A DNA stretch of 64,000 nt from Bacteroidota bacterium (GTDB lineage: Bacteria > Bacteroidota > Rhodothermia > Balneolales > HLUCCA01): the NCBI GenBank assembly GCA_020832235.1, contig JAFIEZ010000007.1, forward strand, positions 124,001-188,000, given 5' to 3'. The notes under the pieces were generated by a model. It worked only from the letters and a program-made list of their open reading frames with translations, was not told where the DNA came from and made no database searches. The position numbers and the translations under genes are program-made. Positions 54,710 through 63,302 of the stretch are shown here, one piece after another (position 1 is the first letter of the stretch; each line of letters starts with the position of its first letter).

Positions 54710-55600
54710 ATGAAAACCGCCAAACACATAGCCGACCGCATCCGACTGATGATCTCTACCAAACAGTTTCAGGTGGGAGAGACGCTGCCAAGCACTCGGG
54801 AGTTGGGCAAACAGCTGAATTCCAGCTTTCATACCGTGCGAAAAGCCTATCAGATGCTGGTGGAGGAGGGGTTGCTGCGCAGTGAGCGAGGCAGCGGATA
54901 TGTGGTGCACCGCCAGTCCACCTTGCTCGATAAGTCCGCCCGACTCGAAATGGGTGCCGAAAAACTACGCTCCGTGCTCGAAGAGCTCGTAGGGTACGGA
55001 CTGGATGAAGACGAGGTTGAAACGCTTTTTGAAGAACAGCTCATGTTTATGGAGTGGCCCGATCGCTTAAATACCAGCGCCACGGTAGGCGCTACCCGCG
55101 AAATAGGCGACATGATATCCAGAGCTATCCGCGATCAAGTTGGCGTTAAAAGCAAAATCATTACCATCATGGACTATGAAAAAGCCGTGAACTACGACGC
55201 GCTTTTTGTACCCCTGCAATATGTAAGGCAATTCAAAGGTGAATCCGATTCAGGACTCGTACTTCCCGTTGTCTACAGCCTGGATGCCGCTATGCTCATC
55301 GCCATAACCGACCGCGCCGCCGTGAACAACATAGCACTGGTTGCCCGCGAGCAGGGATCATTAACCGTACTCAGCAACGAACTTAAAAATGCCCTGCAGT
55401 TCCCGGGAAGTATCGTTGCAGGCGTTACCGATGGTCGATTCCTCCCGCCTTTTGTTAAGGAAGCAGACCTCGTACTCTACACTCCTGACTGTGCTTCGCT
55501 GGTAGAAAGAGCCCTGCCCGAACGCAAACGCCTGCTGCTGGCCTACCAGATATCCGGGAATACCTCCGAAATCATTCGTTCCGAGCTCTGGGATAATTGA
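54710..55600 (+). CDS. GntR-type regulator of the itaconate-like locus
   Basis: The 296-residue protein has a GntR winged helix (about 1-68, KTAKHIADRIRLMISTKQFQVG, STRELGKQLNSSFHTVRKAYQML and SERGSGYVVHR). A linker and an unrecognised C-terminal domain follow (about 75-296), without UTRA, FCD or aminotransferase signatures. The C-terminal half reads like an alpha/beta sensor fold (SKIITIMDYEKAVNYDALFVPL, GLVLPVVYSLDAAMLIAI, RFLPPFVKEADLVLYTPD), possibly periplasmic-binding-like. It is the first gene in the direction of the CoA-pathway cluster and likely controls it. The effector could be itaconate or a related C5 acid, which is an inference from context. Confidence 0.85.
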   Translation: MKTAKHIADRIRLMISTKQFQVGETLPSTRELGKQLNSSFHTVRKAYQMLVEEGLLRSERGSGYVVHRQSTLLDKSARLEMGAEKLRSVLEELVGYGLDEDEVETLFEEQLMFMEWPDRLNTSATVGATREIGDMISRAIRDQVGVKSKIITIMDYEKAVNYDALFVPLQYVRQFKGESDSGLVLPVVYSLDAAMLIAITDRAAVNNIALVAREQGSLTVLSNELKNALQFPGSIVAGVTDGRFLPPFVKEADLVLYTPDCASLVERALPERKRLLLAYQISGNTSEIIRSELWDN

Positions 55601-55906: not shown

Positions 55907-56770
55907 ATGAAGATGAAGTCTTGCATTGCAGCTATAGCAATGGTGGCTGTGGGACTGTCTATGGCAGCACCGGCACAGGCACAATCGCCCGAGGGTATGA
56001 AACTCTACATCACCAGCAGTGGTGAACTGAATCTAGATCAGGGCTGGCTAACGGCTATGACCAACCACGGAAATCGAATCGATATTCCAGTCCCCATGTA
56101 CATCATCGATCACCCGGACGGACTCGTTGTCTTCGATACCGGTATGAATATCGCTGTTGTTCCCGACAATGGCGCCGAATACTGGGGACCGGTTGCCGGA
56201 GCTTTTACCCCAACCATGTCACGTGAGCAGGGAATCGATCGTCAGCTCAACCGCATTGGTAAATCGGTTGAAGATGTACGCTATGTAGTGCACTCTCACC
56301 TTCACCTCGACCATGCCGGTAATATCAGCATGTTCCCGAACGCTACACATATCATCCGTAAAGCCGAGCTCCAGAATGCATGGTGGCCCGAGCGATTTCA
56401 GCGCGCCGCATATGTGATGGACGATTTCAAGAGTACCTATCAGCTGAATATCATCGAATTAACCCGCGATCTTGATCTCTTCGGCGACGGAAGTGTAGAA
56501 CTTATAGATACCAAAGGTCATACCAAGGGCCACCAGTCCATGATTGTGCGACTGCCCAACAGCGGCACCATGATTCTGGCTTCCGATGCAGCCTACATGG
56601 CTGAGAACCTGCAAGGGACCGTTCCAGGTATCGTATGGAATGTGGAATACGCTATGGACGCCATCGAGCGTATGAAACTTATCCGCGATATTGAAGGAGG
56701 TAAGATCATTCTCTCTCACTCTATGGAGATGTATAACACACTCAGACATCTGCCACAGTATTATGATTGA
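55907..56770 (+). CDS. Secreted MBL-fold hydrolase, lactonase-like
   Basis: The 287-residue protein has a signal peptide (about 1-25, ending APAQAQ) and a metallo-beta-lactamase fold. The metal motif HSHLHLDHAG (129-138; HxHxDH) is intact, and later ligands are in LIDTKGHTKGHQSM, ILASDAAYM and ILSHSMEMY. Sequence style is nearest to AHL-lactonase/AttM-type and related enzymes that hydrolyse lactones or esters. It should act in the periplasm or outside. A terminator follows the gene, so it is partly separated from the operon downstream. It may open a lactone form of the growth substrate before uptake, or it may quench signals; neither is shown by sequence. Confidence 0.85.
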   Translation: MKMKSCIAAIAMVAVGLSMAAPAQAQSPEGMKLYITSSGELNLDQGWLTAMTNHGNRIDIPVPMYIIDHPDGLVVFDTGMNIAVVPDNGAEYWGPVAGAFTPTMSREQGIDRQLNRIGKSVEDVRYVVHSHLHLDHAGNISMFPNATHIIRKAELQNAWWPERFQRAAYVMDDFKSTYQLNIIELTRDLDLFGDGSVELIDTKGHTKGHQSMIVRLPNSGTMILASDAAYMAENLQGTVPGIVWNVEYAMDAIERMKLIRDIEGGKIILSHSMEMYNTLRHLPQYYD

Positions 56771-56832: not shown

Positions 56833-56846
56833 AACCGGAGGATGTG

Positions 56847-56936
56847 ATGAATCTGCTTACACTTCTCGCTATTATCATTGCCGTGTATTGGGTAGTAATG
56901 ATGATTTACGTTTACAAAAAAGAAGATTGGACCTAG
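56847..56936 (+). CDS. 29-residue membrane protein, symporter accessory subunit
   Basis: An ATG at 56847 preceded by GGAGG (56838-56842) opens a 29-codon gene encoding one hydrophobic helix (MNLLTLLAIIIAVYWVVMMI) followed by a charged YVYKKEDWT tail. It ends 18 bases before the symporter start. The Shine-Dalgarno is among the best in the window. Small accessory proteins of this kind, upstream of SSS-type symporters, are known in several bacteria. A helix with positive charge on the cytoplasmic side, C-terminal to it, suggests N-out topology. I consider it a likely stabilising or regulatory subunit of the transporter. Confidence 0.8.
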   Translation: MNLLTLLAIIIAVYWVVMMIYVYKKEDWT

Positions 56937-56954: not shown

Positions 56955-58472
56955 TTGGAAGAGTTTAGCATTGGTAACTGGGCGTGGTTCTGGCTCGTTT
57001 TCTTCGTAGGAGGTACGATGGGTCTGGGCTTATATGCCATGACTAAAACAAAAACGGATGAAGATTTTGCAGTTGCAAGGAATTCATACGGTCCCTGGCT
57101 GCTGGTTCTCGCCTTAGCCTCCACTATTGCCAGCGGCGCTACATTTATGGGTATCCCGGGAATGGCCTACTCGAAAGGTTTTCCAGCGCTCTGGTACCCT
57201 GCCATTTATCCCATCGGAATTTATATCGGCCTCATACTTTCGGTCCAGTTAATAAAACGCGCCGGCGATATGTTCCGCTCGAACTCCCTGCCCGAGTTTT
57301 TAGGACAGCGGTTTAACAGCGATTTTCTTCGCATTGGCTTTGCCCTTCTCTCTTTGCTGCTCATTTACTACATCGCGGCACAGGTTGTTGCCGCTGCCAC
57401 CACTTTCGAAGTACTCCTTGGTGTAGATTATCGTATCGGAGTAGTGGTTACCGTACTCGTGATTGGTGTCTACATTACCATTGGCGGATCTCATGCCGAC
57501 ATCCTAACCGATGCCTTTCAAGGATTTCTGATGGTGCTCATCGCTTTGCTCATTACCGGACTTTTCATCTTTGGTGTGGGTTTCGATGGAGGAGGAGTTT
57601 CAGCTATTAATGCCTCACTGGAATCGCAGGACCCAACCCTGGGCTGGAGTAATTATTTTTCACCGGGCGATCCTATTTTTGGCAGCTTCCTGTTGGTTAT
57701 GCTCATGTTTATTGCCCACCTGCCATTTTCCATGAATCCCCATATCGGCAATAAAGCATTTGCCCTGAAAGACTCTAAACAGCTTCGCACCTTCCTGCTG
57801 CTGGCCATTCCGATTGGCTCTATTCTCGGCTTTGCAGTACTCGGTGGACTACACTCCCGTGCACTTTTAGGACCAGACCTGCGTCCAGACGCTGCTATTC
57901 CCGCTTTATTTGTAGAGCTTTTCCCACCTGCTTTTGCCGGTTTTCTGGGTATAGCCATTTTATCGGCTATTGTGTCTACTGCCGACGGTTTATTTGTATC
58001 GGTTGCGGTTATTTTTAGTAATGACTTATACCGCAAAACATTTGCCCAGAGAATACATCCTCATAAATCCCAGAAAGAAATTGACCGTATCGCCCTGAAC
58101 ATCTCGCGCGTGGCTACCGTTGGGACGGTTCTGGCAGCCATTGCCATTGCCTGGAACCCACCGGAATTTTTGGCGATACTGCTCTGGGTTGGGGTTGGAG
58201 GAATCATGTCGGGTGCGGCCGGTCCGCTGGTAATTGGTTCAATGTGGCGTCGTTCTACACCCACTGCAGCTATTGCTTCCTTCCTTACAGGTGTAATAGC
58301 CTACGGTGTTATTTATGTAATCATCGGATGGCAGAATCCCTTTGCTGTAGCCGGTGTGTGTACCATTATGGGTAGTGTAGTGATGGTGGTAGTCAGTTTG
58401 TTTACCAAACCAATGGAGGAAGAAAAACTCAATGAAATTTTCTCTCCGGTACGAGAACCTCTCGACTCATAA
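56955..58472 (+). CDS. Sodium:solute symporter of the CoA-pathway operon
   Basis: A TTG start with AAGGAG eight bases upstream gives 505 residues and about 13 transmembrane segments. Family signatures include WFWLVFFVGGTMGLGLYAM, the sodium-site region ASTIASGATFMGIPGMAYSKG and AGFLGIAILSAIVSTADGLFVSVAVIFSNDLYRK, plus GGSHADILTDAFQGFLMV. It is clearly different from the other symporter at 24216, being closer in style to pantothenate/proline/monocarboxylate types. Position in the operon points to a carboxylic acid substrate such as itaconate, mesaconate or citramalate. In Pseudomonas aeruginosa the same pathway uses a TRAP transporter instead. Confidence 0.9.
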   Translation: MEEFSIGNWAWFWLVFFVGGTMGLGLYAMTKTKTDEDFAVARNSYGPWLLVLALASTIASGATFMGIPGMAYSKGFPALWYPAIYPIGIYIGLILSVQLIKRAGDMFRSNSLPEFLGQRFNSDFLRIGFALLSLLLIYYIAAQVVAAATTFEVLLGVDYRIGVVVTVLVIGVYITIGGSHADILTDAFQGFLMVLIALLITGLFIFGVGFDGGGVSAINASLESQDPTLGWSNYFSPGDPIFGSFLLVMLMFIAHLPFSMNPHIGNKAFALKDSKQLRTFLLLAIPIGSILGFAVLGGLHSRALLGPDLRPDAAIPALFVELFPPAFAGFLGIAILSAIVSTADGLFVSVAVIFSNDLYRKTFAQRIHPHKSQKEIDRIALNISRVATVGTVLAAIAIAWNPPEFLAILLWVGVGGIMSGAAGPLVIGSMWRRSTPTAAIASFLTGVIAYGVIYVIIGWQNPFAVAGVCTIMGSVVMVVVSLFTKPMEEEKLNEIFSPVREPLDS

Positions 58473-58483
58473 GTAAACCTTTT

Positions 58484-59044
58484 ATGTTGATACAATGTGC
58501 ATCGGAGCAAGACTGGTCTGATGCCGAAATCCGGCATCAGATTAAGCGGTTGTACCCAATGCGGTACATGCTCAGGAGGCCTGCGTTCCGTGAGCCTTAC
58601 GTACTCTGGTATCCCTGGTATATTTGTCCTGCCGTGGTAAAAATGGATACCGCCTTGATGCGAGGACAAGTTCATGCCGACCGCGTAGCTGTAGACTCGG
58701 TAAGGCCTATGCGCGAGCGACTAGACCGTGTACCAGATATTATTCCAAGGGAAATTGATGATGTCTGTGTTGTACCTTTTCGCCTCCGCTGTGAGCAAGC
58801 CCGTGAAGAAGCACACGATTTGCTAACCACAGTTGTTATTAATCGTAATAAACTCCTTATTTCGCATGAAATTTCAGTAGGAGAACCACAACTTGTGTAC
58901 TTTCGGGTCTTAATTATTCCTGTAGAAGGACTCGAAGAAGATGACTGGCCTGTAATGGAAGAATTTTTTGGAAACTCCTATCGCCTTGCAAGACGACGCG
59001 AACTACGTTCTGTCTTGAAGGAAAACATGCTAACTATGCCATGA
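58484..59044 (+). CDS. Unknown 186-residue protein in CoA-pathway operon
   Basis: I do not recognise this 186-residue protein. It has no signal peptide, no transmembrane segment and few Cys (3). It is rich in Arg and Glu. Segments that may define it are WYPWYICPAVVKMDTALMRG, PREIDDVCVVPFRLRCEQAR, VINRNKLLISHEISVGEPQ and FFGNSYRLARRRELRSVL. It starts 12 bases after the symporter gene and its stop overlaps the lyase start (ATGA), so it is tightly tied to the pathway. It might be a regulatory or adaptor protein; no enzyme motif is visible. Confidence 0.75.
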   Translation: MLIQCASEQDWSDAEIRHQIKRLYPMRYMLRRPAFREPYVLWYPWYICPAVVKMDTALMRGQVHADRVAVDSVRPMRERLDRVPDIIPREIDDVCVVPFRLRCEQAREEAHDLLTTVVINRNKLLISHEISVGEPQLVYFRVLIIPVEGLEEDDWPVMEEFFGNSYRLARRRELRSVLKENMLTMP

Positions 59045-59892
59045 ATATAGACTTAACTACACTTCGGTCGCTGCTTTTTGTGCCAGCCACCAAGCTCAAC
59101 AAGATTACACAGGTGTCTGAAAGCGGCACAGATCTCATTATCATTGATCTGGAAGACAGTGTAAACGTGGCAGAAAAAGACAGCATGCGACAGGCCGTAA
59201 CTACGTTCTTCGAAGAGTGGGAGCCTGAGAAATTCGGCGCAGCAATCGGGGTACGTATTAATTCGGTGCGATCTATCGATGGAGTGCTCGATTTTCTTTC
59301 CATCATGGATACTCCTAATCTGCCCGATGCCCTGATGCTGCCAAAGGTTGATTCTGTAATGGAAATTGATCTGGTGGCTGACTGGATGGAAGACATTGAC
59401 ATCCTCATGCCCGTGATTCCGATCTTCGAGACCCTCGCTGTGTGGGATGAAATCGACGAAATCATGGCCCACGACCTGGTACCCTGTGGCGTTTTTGGCG
59501 GTATTGATCTGGCAGCGGAGTTGGCAAGCGACCGTTCGTGGGAAAGTATGCAGCTGTATCGTAACCTCTTGCTTCGTGCAGCCCGAAGAAGCGATAAGGC
59601 CTGTCTGGATATGCCCTGGTTCGACCTGAACGACGAGGCCGGACTGCGCAAAGAAACCCTACGCCTGCAGTCTATGGGTTACGATGGCCGCGTTGCCATT
59701 CATCCGGCTCAAGTAGCGGTCATTCATGAATGTTTTCGTCCCGACGACCAGGCGGTAGTAGACGCACGCGCCATGATCGATGCGTTTGAACAAAGCAGCA
59801 CCGGCGTAGTAACCTTCAAAGGTAAAGTAGTAGAAAAACCCGTCCTTATGCACGCATATAAATTAATTGAACGCGCGCAGCGCTTCACTTGA
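59041..59892 (+). CDS. CitE-like citramalyl-CoA lyase candidate
   Basis: The 283-residue protein belongs to the HpcH/HpaI-CitE aldolase family. It shows RSLLFVPATKLNKI, TDLIIIDLEDSVNVAEKDSMR (metal and substrate site), VRINSVRS, LPKVDSVMEI, the metal Glu/Asp in VIPIFETLAVWDEI and FGGIDLAAELA, and MGYDGRVAIHPAQVAVI. Such lyases split malyl-, citramalyl- or citryl-type CoA thioesters. Next to a class III CoA-transferase and a MaoC hydratase the best reading is (S)-citramalyl-CoA lyase (Ccl), yielding acetyl-CoA and pyruvate, the last step of itaconate breakdown. Malyl-CoA or beta-methylmalyl-CoA lyase is the alternative. Start and stop overlap neighbours by four bases at the 5' end. Confidence 0.87.
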   Translation: MNIDLTTLRSLLFVPATKLNKITQVSESGTDLIIIDLEDSVNVAEKDSMRQAVTTFFEEWEPEKFGAAIGVRINSVRSIDGVLDFLSIMDTPNLPDALMLPKVDSVMEIDLVADWMEDIDILMPVIPIFETLAVWDEIDEIMAHDLVPCGVFGGIDLAAELASDRSWESMQLYRNLLLRAARRSDKACLDMPWFDLNDEAGLRKETLRLQSMGYDGRVAIHPAQVAVIHECFRPDDQAVVDARAMIDAFEQSSTGVVTFKGKVVEKPVLMHAYKLIERAQRFT

Positions 59893-59918: not shown

Positions 59919-61082
59919 ATGCAAATTGATCTCAGTAATAATTTTGATGCATTACGGCAACGCGTACGTGCCATTACAGACAAATATCCCGGTGAATATT
60001 GGAGAGAACTGGACGCTGAACGCAAATATCCGTCCGAATTTGTAGACGAGTTTAGCAAAAGCGGTCTCCTCTCCGTGCTGATTCCCACCGAATACGGCGG
60101 CGAAGGCAGAAGCTTGAGTGAGGCGGCGGTTATCATGGAAGAAATTCAGGCTGCAGGATGCAACGGGGGCACCTGCCATGCCCAGATGTATATCATGGGT
60201 ACGCTGCTTCGTTATGGCAACGAAGACCAGAAGCAACGTTACCTTACTAAAGTCGCGGCCGGAGAGCTGCGCCTTCAGGTATTTGGCGTCACTGAGGAGC
60301 ATACCGGCACCGACACCACCAAACTGCGCACCTTTGCTGAAAAGGTTGATGGCGGATTCAAGGTTAACGGTCATAAATTTTATATTGGTCGGGGACAACA
60401 TTCCGATCTTATGTTGCTGCTTGCCCGCACCACGCCGCTCGACCAGGTTAAGAAAAAAACCGAGGGGTTGTCCATTTTCCTGGTAGACATGCGTGAGGTG
60501 CGCGGGAAAGAGTTGGATATACGTCCCATCCGCACCACTATGAATCACTCGTTGACTGAAATCTTCATCAAGGATTTATTTATTCCCGATGAAAACCTCG
60601 TGGGCGAGCTTGGTAAAGGCTTCCGTTATATTCTCGACAGCATGAACGCCGAGCGGCTGCTGATTGCCGGTGAGTGCATTGGCGATGCCCGATATTTTAT
60701 TGATCAGGCAACCGACTGGGCCAATAAGCGCGAGCTTTTTGGCAGGAAAATAGGTCAGAACCAAGGCATTCAGTTCCCAATCGCCCGAGCCTATGCCAGC
60801 ATGAGAGCTGCCGAAATGATCGTTAAAAAAGGAACGGCCATGTTTGATGCAGGTCAGAAAGTTGGGGAGGAAGCCAATATGGCCCTGCTGCTGGCATCAG
60901 AGGCATCGTGGGAAGCAGGCAATGCGGCAATTCAGACTTTTGGTGGCCGGGGATTTGATGCCAATTATGATATTGAACGTAAATTTCGCGAAACCCGTCT
61001 CTATCAGGTGGCCCCCATATCAAAGAATATGATACTTGCATACCTTTCCGAACATGTTTTGGGTCTTCCGCGCTCGTATTAA
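59919..61082 (+). CDS. Acyl-CoA dehydrogenase
   Basis: I start at ATG 59919 (MQIDLSNNFDALRQRV) with AGAAAGAAG upstream; a TTG at 59889 overlapping the previous stop as TTGA is an alternative. The 387-residue protein has the family's three domains: helical N-terminus, the flavin-binding VFGVTEEHTGTDTTKLRTF, and the C-terminal GGRGFDANYDIERKFRETR with YQVAPISKNMI. An acyl-CoA dehydrogenase gene (PA0879) also accompanies the P. aeruginosa itaconate genes, where its role is unclear. Here it might oxidise methylsuccinyl-CoA to mesaconyl-CoA, widening the range of C5 acids, but this is an inference. Confidence 0.9.
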   Translation: MQIDLSNNFDALRQRVRAITDKYPGEYWRELDAERKYPSEFVDEFSKSGLLSVLIPTEYGGEGRSLSEAAVIMEEIQAAGCNGGTCHAQMYIMGTLLRYGNEDQKQRYLTKVAAGELRLQVFGVTEEHTGTDTTKLRTFAEKVDGGFKVNGHKFYIGRGQHSDLMLLLARTTPLDQVKKKTEGLSIFLVDMREVRGKELDIRPIRTTMNHSLTEIFIKDLFIPDENLVGELGKGFRYILDSMNAERLLIAGECIGDARYFIDQATDWANKRELFGRKIGQNQGIQFPIARAYASMRAAEMIVKKGTAMFDAGQKVGEEANMALLLASEASWEAGNAAIQTFGGRGFDANYDIERKFRETRLYQVAPISKNMILAYLSEHVLGLPRSY

Positions 61083-61197: not shown

Positions 61198-62328
61198 ATG
61201 AAAGTTTTTCGTCCTCTTGAAGGATTAACGGTAGTTTCCATTGAGCAGGCTGTCTCTGCGCCGTATGCTTCGTGCCGACTGGCCGATGCGGGTGCACGCG
61301 TCATAAAGATAGAGCGCGATACGGGAGATTTTGCCCGACAATACGACGAGGCTGTAAATGGTCTGGCGACCTACTTCGTGTGGATCAACCGTGGTAAAGA
61401 ATCAATCCGGCTGAACATCAAGGATGATGCCGACCGTACTATATTTCTGAATATGATCGACCGCGCCGACGTATTTATTCAGAACCTGGCTCCCGGAGCC
61501 CTTGAGAAAATCGGTCTGCATTCCGCCGCCCTGCGCGATCGCAACAATCAACTCATTACCGTTGATATTTCAGGGTATGGTGAGGAAGGCGATTACAGCA
61601 AGATGAAAGCCTACGACAACCTGGTTCAATGCGAGAGCGGACTGGTGGATGTAACCGGCGACGGGGAAATGCGTTCTAAGGTGGGTATTTCCATAGCCGA
61701 TATTTCAGCAGGTGTACATGCCTACTCCGCCGTTCTGGAAGCACTGCACGAGCGAAATAGAACCGGAAAAGGTGTAGGCATTAAAATCTCCATGTTCGAC
61801 TGCATGGCCGACTGGATGATGGTTCCGTATCTGCATCAGGAATATGCCGGAAAAGCACCATCCCGAACAGGCGTACATCATGCCGCCATTTCTCCATATG
61901 GGCCATTTCATACGCGGGAAAACAAGCAGGTTGTGATTGCCATCCAGAATGAAAGGGAGTGGGTGCGCTTTTGCGAAACCGTAACGAATGGGGCAATCCG
62001 TTCCGACGATGCGCGTTACATACGTAATTCGGCACGTGTTGCCAACCGTGATGAACTCAATGCTACTATACAACAGGTATTGCAAGAACTTTCGCATGAG
62101 GAAGTTATTTCCCGACTTGAGCAGGGTTCCATCGCTTATGCCAGGCTGAATACGGTAGCTGATTTTGCGCGGCACCCTCAGTTGCGGATAAAACCGGTTG
62201 ATTCGGAGGCGGGCCCAGTGCGTATCGTCGACCGTCCGGCAAAATTTGTAGGATATACAACATCCTTCGAGCGTATTCCGGATCTGGGCGAACATGAAGA
62301 AGCATTGAAAAAGGAGTTCACCATATGA
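61198..62328 (+). CDS. Class III CoA-transferase, itaconate CoA-transferase candidate
   Basis: The 376-residue protein is a CaiB/BaiF-type CoA-transferase. It begins FRPLEGLTVVSIEQAVSAPYASCRLADAG and continues with VIKIERDTGDFARQYD, FVWINRGKESI, LAPGALEKIG, KAYDNLVQCESGL and the catalytic Asp168 in ISIADISAGVHA. Members exchange CoA between acids such as succinyl-CoA and itaconate (Ict), mesaconate or formate. The YDNLVQCESGL form and the adjacent hydratase and lyase favour itaconate or mesaconate as acceptor. Its stop overlaps the hydratase start (ATGA). Confidence 0.9.
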   Translation: MKVFRPLEGLTVVSIEQAVSAPYASCRLADAGARVIKIERDTGDFARQYDEAVNGLATYFVWINRGKESIRLNIKDDADRTIFLNMIDRADVFIQNLAPGALEKIGLHSAALRDRNNQLITVDISGYGEEGDYSKMKAYDNLVQCESGLVDVTGDGEMRSKVGISIADISAGVHAYSAVLEALHERNRTGKGVGIKISMFDCMADWMMVPYLHQEYAGKAPSRTGVHHAAISPYGPFHTRENKQVVIAIQNEREWVRFCETVTNGAIRSDDARYIRNSARVANRDELNATIQQVLQELSHEEVISRLEQGSIAYARLNTVADFARHPQLRIKPVDSEAGPVRIVDRPAKFVGYTTSFERIPDLGEHEEALKKEFTI

Positions 62329-63302
62329 ATAAACCGTTCAGCGAATGGATTGGTAAAACCCGGCAGTCGTACGATAGTATGGCCGCTGAGACCATGAAAC
62401 GTTACGCTGCAACCATGGACCGCAATCCGGCCCTGGTAGTAGATGACGACCCGCTGTCGCCATGTGCTCATTGGTTCTATTTCACTCCGATGGAAGCTCT
62501 TTCAGAGCTCGCTGAAGACGGACACCCGCATAAGGGAGACTTCCTGCCACCTATTGAGCTTCCACGAAGAATGTGGGCCGGAGGCAGGGTGAAAAACTTG
62601 TCTGCATTACGTACGGGGCGCCCTGCCACCAAAACATCAACCATTACGCGCGTTGAGCAGAAAAACGGTCGAACCGGCTCGCTTTGTTTTGTAACTGTAG
62701 TGCATCAGCTCGAGCAGGGTGGTGTACTTTGCGTAGAGGAAGAACAGGATATCGTTTATCGCGAAGCAGCGCCCAAAGGGGTGGCTCCCAAAAGAGGACA
62801 AGCTATGCCGGGCCGTACCGACTGGACGGAAGTATGGAAGCCCGATGCGGTACAGCTGTTTCGATTTTCAGCCATCACGTTTAATGCGCACCGCATTCAT
62901 TATGATGCCGATTACTGCCGCGATGTAGAGGGATATCCAGCTCCGGTAGTCCACGGACCGCTGTTACTGCACCGTATATTACAAGCATTCACATCCCGCC
63001 ATACTTCCCGTTGTGTCACCCATATCAGCTACCGGGCGATGGGACCGGTTTATCTCGGTGAGACGGTGAAGGTAGGCGGGATTGATGCTTCTGCCCAAAC
63101 CCAGCCTGAATCTCGCAACACAGCTTCCTCCGAAACAGCCGATGTGGCTGGAAAAAAGCTTCCTTCCGATACGCCCGGAGCAAGCGATGCATCCCCAAAA
63201 GGCGATTCAACCGTTCATAGCGGAGTAACAACCATGTTTATATTTGGCTCAGAAGGTAATATCGGCATGCAGGCCGAACTGAGCTGGGAGGAGTCTATTT
63301 AA
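62325..63302 (+). CDS. MaoC-type mesaconyl-C4/itaconyl-CoA hydratase with insert
   Basis: The 325-residue protein has the double hotdog layout of the mesaconyl-C4-CoA hydratase/itaconyl-CoA hydratase (Meh/Ich) group: HWFYFTPMEALSELAEDG and LPPIELPRRMWAGGR in the first part, then FSAITFNAHRIHYDADYCRD and APVVHGPLLLHRIL (about 178-215) in the second. The active-site His/Asp of the hydratase motif are present. The region about 252-300 is a hydrophilic, low-complexity insert rich in Ser, Thr, Ala and Asp, unlike the family. It is bounded by overlaps with both neighbours (ATGA, TAATG). In the itaconate pathway it would hydrate itaconyl-CoA to citramalyl-CoA. Confidence 0.9.
   Translation: MNKPFSEWIGKTRQSYDSMAAETMKRYAATMDRNPALVVDDDPLSPCAHWFYFTPMEALSELAEDGHPHKGDFLPPIELPRRMWAGGRVKNLSALRTGRPATKTSTITRVEQKNGRTGSLCFVTVVHQLEQGGVLCVEEEQDIVYREAAPKGVAPKRGQAMPGRTDWTEVWKPDAVQLFRFSAITFNAHRIHYDADYCRDVEGYPAPVVHGPLLLHRILQAFTSRHTSRCVTHISYRAMGPVYLGETVKVGGIDASAQTQPESRNTASSETADVAGKKLPSDTPGASDASPKGDSTVHSGVTTMFIFGSEGNIGMQAELSWEESI

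Follow-up and report, generated by a model that had tools for sequence, protein, structure and literature searches.

The 186-residue protein encoded at positions 58,484 to 59,044 of the window (the whole 64,000-nucleotide stretch of DNA analysed here) is probably the soluble component, located in the cytoplasm, of a sodium symporter cassette that has three parts; there it would have an accessory or regulatory role. Its gene, called the orphan below, is shown to pair exclusively with one clade of sodium:solute symporter family (SSF) transporters in two domains of life, and the other SSF genes examined are without both partners. It travels with one kind of symporter and with a micropeptide in bacteria as well as in archaea, and therefore the protein is most likely a helper of the pump and not an enzyme of the pathway. 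The features of the locus are as follows.

54710..55600, + strand: GntR-type regulator, likely local (PF00392, E 1.1e-16)
55907..56770, + strand: metallo-beta-lactamase-fold lactonase-like protein, first structural gene of the conserved operon (PF00753, E 1.2e-15)
56847..56936 (stop included), + strand: 29-aa single-helix micropeptide MNLLTLLAIIIAVYWVVMMIYVYKKEDWT, proposed membrane accessory peptide (conservation, codon pattern)
56955..58472, + strand: SSF transporter, 505 aa, TTG start (PF00474, E 3.8e-45)
58484..59044, + strand: soluble protein of 186 aa, proposed to serve the SSF symporter as a cytoplasmic accessory subunit (open reading frame, conservation, purifying selection, haloarchaeal relatives, AlphaFold2 model)
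59041..59892, + strand: CitE/RipC-like CoA-ester lyase (PF03328, E 1.9e-26)
59919..61082, + strand: acyl-CoA dehydrogenase (PF00441/PF02770/PF02771)
61198..62328, + strand: family III (CaiB/BaiF) CoA-transferase (PF02515, E 1.5e-92)
62325..63302, + strand: MaoC/FAS1-DH type hydratase (PF13452, E 2.3e-6)

The orphan gene and its operon in Balneolota

The open reading frame of 186 codons occupies exactly 58484-59044 on the forward strand. The stop of the symporter ends at 58472, and so the gap between both genes is 11 bases and not 12 as given in the original prediction. On the other side, the TGA of the orphan (59042-59044) overlaps the ATG of the lyase gene (59041-59043), which confirms the ATGA coupling (59041-59044) claimed in the same place. 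The relative from the same genus retains this overlap, but the ten genomes of the other genus are without it, their lyase starting 2 to about 50 bases later. A GGAGG...CCTCC inverted repeat was also seen in the symporter-orphan gap of some relatives (loci L041 and L044), just before the orphan start codon.

With a three-row profile, the orphan was found in 12 of the 128 genomes of the order, namely the window genome, one genome of the same genus and ten of one other genus; the carriers thus belong to two genera of halophilic Balneolota. A 16-row profile applied to 124 genomes of the order returned the same 12 together with weak matches that were judged to be chance. When a single sequence was searched against 394 genomes across the phylum, 3 genomes matched strongly and 15 weakly (E 0.007-0.1). 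All 15 were treated as chance; the two that were read (G324 and G270) lie inside 300-codon open reading frames with unrelated neighbours. Other weak genome matches were treated likewise (G175, G304, G443 and a second match in G326). In the genome contigs the single-sequence scan gave no match. All matches of the three-row profile there were from Balneolota, in records named as Balneolaceae MAGs and Bacteroidetes bacterium HLUCCA01. The viral contigs searched gave no match.

Identity to the window protein is 61-63% in the same-genus genome (G001) and 28-34% in the ten genomes of the other genus. The dN/dS ratio was estimable in four pairs, with values of 0.22, 0.066, 0.157 and 0.075 (range 0.07-0.22); a fifth pair, the window against G001, has saturated dS and was left out of the estimates. 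The conserved blocks of the family include WYP, MDT, VAVD and RNKLL. The 186-aa gene is therefore real, conserved and under purifying selection.

As the original prediction had it, the protein is without a known family and without a membrane segment. No Pfam or NCBIfam family was found for the window protein (E up to 1 and 0.1, respectively), and the 12 Balneolota members gave only stray matches at E 0.044 or worse, none of them common to more than two members. The maximum Kyte-Doolittle mean over 19 residues is 1.05 in the window protein, and no membrane segment is present in any of 16 members of the family (12 from Balneolota and 4 from the haloarchaea described below). No nucleotide-binding motif was recognised in the family either. 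Over the 16 members only Y43, P44, D71, P84, A106, E109, L137 and E173 are invariant, and these do not appear to form a catalytic set.

The expected linkage with CitE-type and symporter genes holds in all the Balneolota carriers: the order SSF symporter, orphan, CitE-like lyase and acyl-CoA dehydrogenase is present in 12 of 12 genomes (the window and 11 others). The lactonase-like gene precedes in 11 of 11 loci, and the CoA-transferase and MaoC genes come after in 8 of 8, counting the loci whose contig extends that far. A GntR gene upstream is found only in the window and in G001. The symporter (E<=1e-40) occurs in 12 of the 124 genomes searched in the order, and it is precisely these that give a strong match to the orphan. 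The members of the operon differ in their rate of change. Identity across the two genera is 32% for the orphan and 39% for the CitE-type lyase, both diverging much faster than the symporter (80%) and the acyl-CoA dehydrogenase (79-81%).

For the enzymes, the best PDB match of the lyase is 3qll (E 3.3e-41), which we take to be RipC, and the lyase matches the RipC model NF038242 over its full length with 193 bits, below the cut-off of 375. The acyl-CoA dehydrogenase frame is open from a TTG at 59889, and its relatives start at the position of the ATG at 59919. The lactonase-like protein scores 214 bits against NF045700 (AttM-type lactonase), below the cut-off of 390; it has a signal-peptide-like start and may open a lactone, e.g. 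a paraconate, before uptake and outside the cytoplasm. All the window enzymes stay below the NCBIfam equivalog cut-offs, and the substrate is therefore one that we infer. Cupriavidus and Pseudomonas employ enzymes of these kinds on methylsuccinate and itaconate (PMC12290011); mesaconyl-C4-CoA is the product of the dehydrogenase there, and acetyl-CoA and pyruvate are released by the lyase. The pseudomonad cluster also carries a lactonase (PMC9875883). The enzymes of the operon fit such C5-dicarboxylate catabolism, and the Balneolota operon most likely converts a branched C5 dicarboxylate (methylsuccinate or itaconate, for example) into acetyl-CoA and pyruvate.

The previously unlisted micropeptide gene is situated between the lactonase-like gene and that of the symporter; an in-frame GTG at 56844 is a possible alternative start. 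Wherever the upstream DNA of a Balneolota locus is readable (11 of 11), the 29-aa peptide, with substitutions, is present at this place; the contig of the twelfth (G440) is cut upstream, and this locus is outside the count. Summed over the 55 pairs of the Balneolota set, the codon differences are 333, 196 and 762 at positions 1, 2 and 3. By this pattern the micropeptide is under coding constraint, with synonymous substitutions prevailing. No named family was found for it in Pfam or NCBIfam, and TIGR03647 matched neither the window peptide nor one haloarchaeal peptide (NCBIfam, E<=10). Elsewhere in the window genome, on contig 11 (L071:1194-1394), a membrane peptide of about 66 aa upstream of another SSF gene does match TIGR03647 (E 1.8e-27).

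Haloarchaeal relatives and the symporter clade

The symporter passes the gathering score of PF00474 (154.9 bits vs 22.8). A tblastn search with it (E<=1e-25) returned 6 of 72,556 plasmid records, all of them haloarchaeal. The closest symporters on named plasmids are four haloarchaeal ones, 40-43% identical to the window SSF, and directly downstream of all four there is an unnamed protein of 189-204 aa. Two further haloarchaeal SSFs at 34% identity have neither the orphan nor the micropeptide beside them.

When the 12 Balneolota orphans were compared with the four haloarchaeal ones by hhalign, the score was 41 (P 9e-6) over 119 collinear columns; the relation is remote, with an hhalign probability of 83% and an identity of 15-22%. 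As a control we took every open reading frame of at least 130 codons in the six plasmid loci (216 in total), and the four proteins rank 1 to 4 among them (scores 40.1, 33.0, 31.0 and 28.1, the next being 20.2). The maximum of 100 column shuffles of the profile was 22.6, and the reversed profile gave 21.1. A tblastn search of all plasmids with the first haloarchaeal orphan (E<=0.01) returned the same four records and no other. The profile of the haloarchaeal orphans matched 0 of 198 genomes of the phylum, but it missed the window's own genome too. The net charge of the haloarchaeal members is -11 to -26, and such negative charge is usual for haloarchaeal cytoplasmic proteins. The archaeal sample consists of four loci from three genera, two of the loci being near-copies, and this distribution is that on plasmids.

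The micropeptide is present in the archaea as well. In 4 of 4 haloarchaeal loci a peptide of 43-46 aa can be read from an ATG, and a gap-free alignment of the bacterial and archaeal peptides is possible from the first residue on (M-N, Y at 14, E-D at 26-27). The cross-domain profile scores higher than 1000 of 1000 column shuffles.

The association was also followed on the side of the symporter. The window genome has nine SSF genes (ten matches, with one gene split). Neither partner occurs within about 1.3 kb on each side of the eight other SSF loci, where the best hhalign score is 21.3. A tree of 19 SSF proteins groups the nine partnered SSFs in a single clade, with support 96/95 and recovered in 95% of 200 bootstrap trees; this clade unites the window-type symporters with the haloarchaeal ones.

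On the other hand, the catabolic genes differ. No CoA-ester lyase is annotated within about 8 kb of the four haloarchaeal orphans, and their neighbourhoods carry acetyl-CoA hydrolase/transferase, aldehyde dehydrogenase and histidinol dehydrogenase-like genes, to which the Halomarina locus adds acyl-CoA dehydrogenases, MmgE/PrpD and MaoC. The constant partner of the orphan is the symporter, because the haloarchaeal relatives follow a homologous SSF without an annotated CoA-ester lyase. As to Halomarina, the cassette on plasmid NZ_CP100449.1 (locus 154222-171730) adjoins its acyl-CoA dehydrogenase, MmgE/PrpD and MaoC genes together with CoA-transferase-like genes; these neighbours suggest the same kind of substrate in archaea.

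We account for one claim of the original prediction differently in this light. There the protein was a candidate for a new component of a C5-acid pathway, and part of this stands: the gene is real, family-less, linked to symporter and lyase, and situated in a C5-type operon. However, the haloarchaeal relatives tie it to the symporter and not to the CoA pathway. The orphan gene marks the transporter rather than CoA chemistry, which corrects the first reading.

Predicted fold and possible roles of the protein

Two AlphaFold2 models were obtained. The one with the window protein first has pLDDT 85.9 and pTM 0.80, and the one with a 30%-identical relative first has 86.7 and 0.81; the two models agree. 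The predicted fold consists of an N-terminal helix, a long beta hairpin, a long helix, a second strand pair, two short strands and a C-terminal helix. An internal duplication, prompted by the strand order, was unsupported when the N half was compared with the C half (score 10, P 0.35). In Foldseek searches against the PDB, the best E values of the two models were 0.054 and 0.22, the matches being mostly MHC and viral glycoprotein chains with a probability of at most 0.23. The best VIA-align matches were two PurS structures, 2zw2 (Z 4.2, rmsd 2.8, 57 aligned) and 1vq3 (Z 3.9, rmsd 2.3, 59 aligned), both too weak to use. PII proteins are not among the matches listed in these fold searches, and sequence profiles of the family against the PDB gave nothing below E 0.83. 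Profile search and structure prediction agree with the original prediction in giving no confident match to a known family, and the predicted fold has no convincing match, to a known regulator or otherwise, among the solved structures listed.

As we picture it, the cassette consists, in gene order, of a predicted single-helix membrane peptide of 29-46 aa, an SSF symporter of the LeuT-fold type and an alpha/beta protein of about 180-205 aa. In Balneolota it would feed a catabolic operon with the lactonase-like protein, CoA-transferase, acyl-CoA dehydrogenase, MaoC hydratase and CitE/RipC-type lyase. The orphan protein would bind the symporter from the cytoplasm and control or stabilise its transport cycle; for example, it could block or allow uptake depending on a cytosolic ligand, in the manner of SbtB on SbtA. 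The micropeptide would sit beside the symporter in the membrane. Both small proteins accompany the symporter whatever the enzymes are, and because of this they most likely serve it. A stronger version of the proposal is that the SSF clade of halophilic bacteria and haloarchaea is an obligate three-component transporter, in which a soluble protein of unseen fold gates or allosterically controls transport together with the 29-46-residue peptide; we put this forward only tentatively.

Several observations count against a role at the symporter. The orphan (32%) evolves far faster than the SSF (80%) and at a pace like that of the lyase (39%), and this would be equally in keeping with a tie to the lyase; rapid change in a subunit of a slowly changing transporter can occur, but it is not typical. 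Also, in the window the coupling overlap joins the orphan to the lyase and not to the symporter. The remoteness of the haloarchaeal homology, seen in four proteins from three genera, and a fold for which no known regulator was matched weigh on the same side.

Among the other explanations, the one that survives best, although we consider it rather unlikely, is a cytoplasmic enzyme (isomerase, epimerase or hydrolase) acting on the imported acid, so that the link to the symporter would come through the substrate and not through binding. Such an enzyme could well accompany a substrate-specific symporter clade in two domains, and the Balneolota operon is without the MmgE/PrpD methylsuccinate isomerase that is present in pseudomonad clusters. 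Nevertheless, the invariant residues over 16 members are few and give no evident catalytic motif, the protein diverges fast beside well-conserved enzymes, and the haloarchaeal loci differ in their catabolic genes. A replacement of the MmgE isomerase was considered specifically and rejected: in Halomarina an MmgE/PrpD gene is annotated beside the cassette, and the orphan is therefore no simple replacement.

It is quite improbable that the protein is a subunit or chaperone of the adjoining CitE/RipC-type lyase. The ATGA overlap in one genus would agree with it, as would the similarly fast divergence of the two proteins and the position of the lyase gene next to the orphan in every Balneolota carrier (12 of 12). 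However, the overlap is absent from the other genus, the four haloarchaeal relatives lie beside the symporter in loci where the annotation shows no CoA-ester lyase for about 8 kb, and an Aminobacter plasmid operon has lyase, hydratase, CoA-transferase and dehydrogenase without the orphan.

We give slightly less credence still to a sensor of the imported compound or of a CoA ester that controls a target other than the symporter, e.g. transcription of the operon. The constant pairing of a soluble protein with an uptake gene is what a sensor would show, but no DNA-binding family is matched in Pfam or NCBIfam, and the window and 3 of 4 haloarchaeal loci have separate regulators of the GntR or IclR type. 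Finally, a chance open reading frame or decaying remnant, which the restricted distribution and the lack of a database family might suggest, is hardly conceivable and already contradicted by a frame that stays open in all 12 genomes, with identities of 28-63%, dN/dS of 0.07-0.22 and conserved blocks.

Comparison with known systems

Returning to the symporter cassette and the operon that it would feed, we compared both with systems that have been described. The itaconate/methylsuccinate cluster of pseudomonads and Cupriavidus (ict, ich, ccl, mcd, mmgE and 2-hydroxyparaconate lactonase) resembles the window operon in combining its enzyme set with a lactonase and a dedicated transporter (PMC12290011, PMC9875883). 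The window operon likewise brings together genes for a CoA-transferase, a hydratase, a lyase and an acyl-CoA dehydrogenase. The two differ in that the window has the SSF cassette instead of the pseudomonad transporter and has no mmgE, and in that its lactonase-like protein has the metallo-beta-lactamase fold whereas the pseudomonad lactonase is of the 127-aa PA0880 type.

In the open-licence PMC literature no report was found of the cassette, or of the operon in Balneolota, the nearest topics being SbtA/SbtB and ActP/YjcH. SSF symporters are usually studied as single proteins or with one small membrane subunit. If the proposal is true, it would offer a tractable system for post-synthesis control of sodium-driven uptake in bacteria and archaea, and two unannotated gene families would be named and tied to carboxylate uptake in hypersaline habitats.

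SbtA, the Na+/bicarbonate symporter of cyanobacteria, and its soluble regulator SbtB have adjoining genes; SbtA is of another transporter family and is not known to belong to PF00474. The pair is the nearest model for the proposed cassette, in that a soluble protein works on a sodium symporter from the cytoplasmic side (PMC10710835). SbtB is PII-like, whereas PII-type family profiles matched none of the 12 Balneolota and 4 haloarchaeal members of the orphan family (hmmscan, Pfam, E<=10), so this is a working analogy and not a family relation. The micropeptide, for its part, resembles the TIGR03647 proteins ("sodium/substrate symporter small subunit") in that its gene, which codes for a small membrane protein, stands immediately before an SSF gene. 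However, TIGR03647 is a model of about 77 positions, while the cassette peptide has 29-46 residues and no match to it, and the cassette has a soluble second partner in addition. As judged from its genes, the cassette is an SSF symporter with putative accessory subunits, which adds a micropeptide and a soluble protein to the known pattern.
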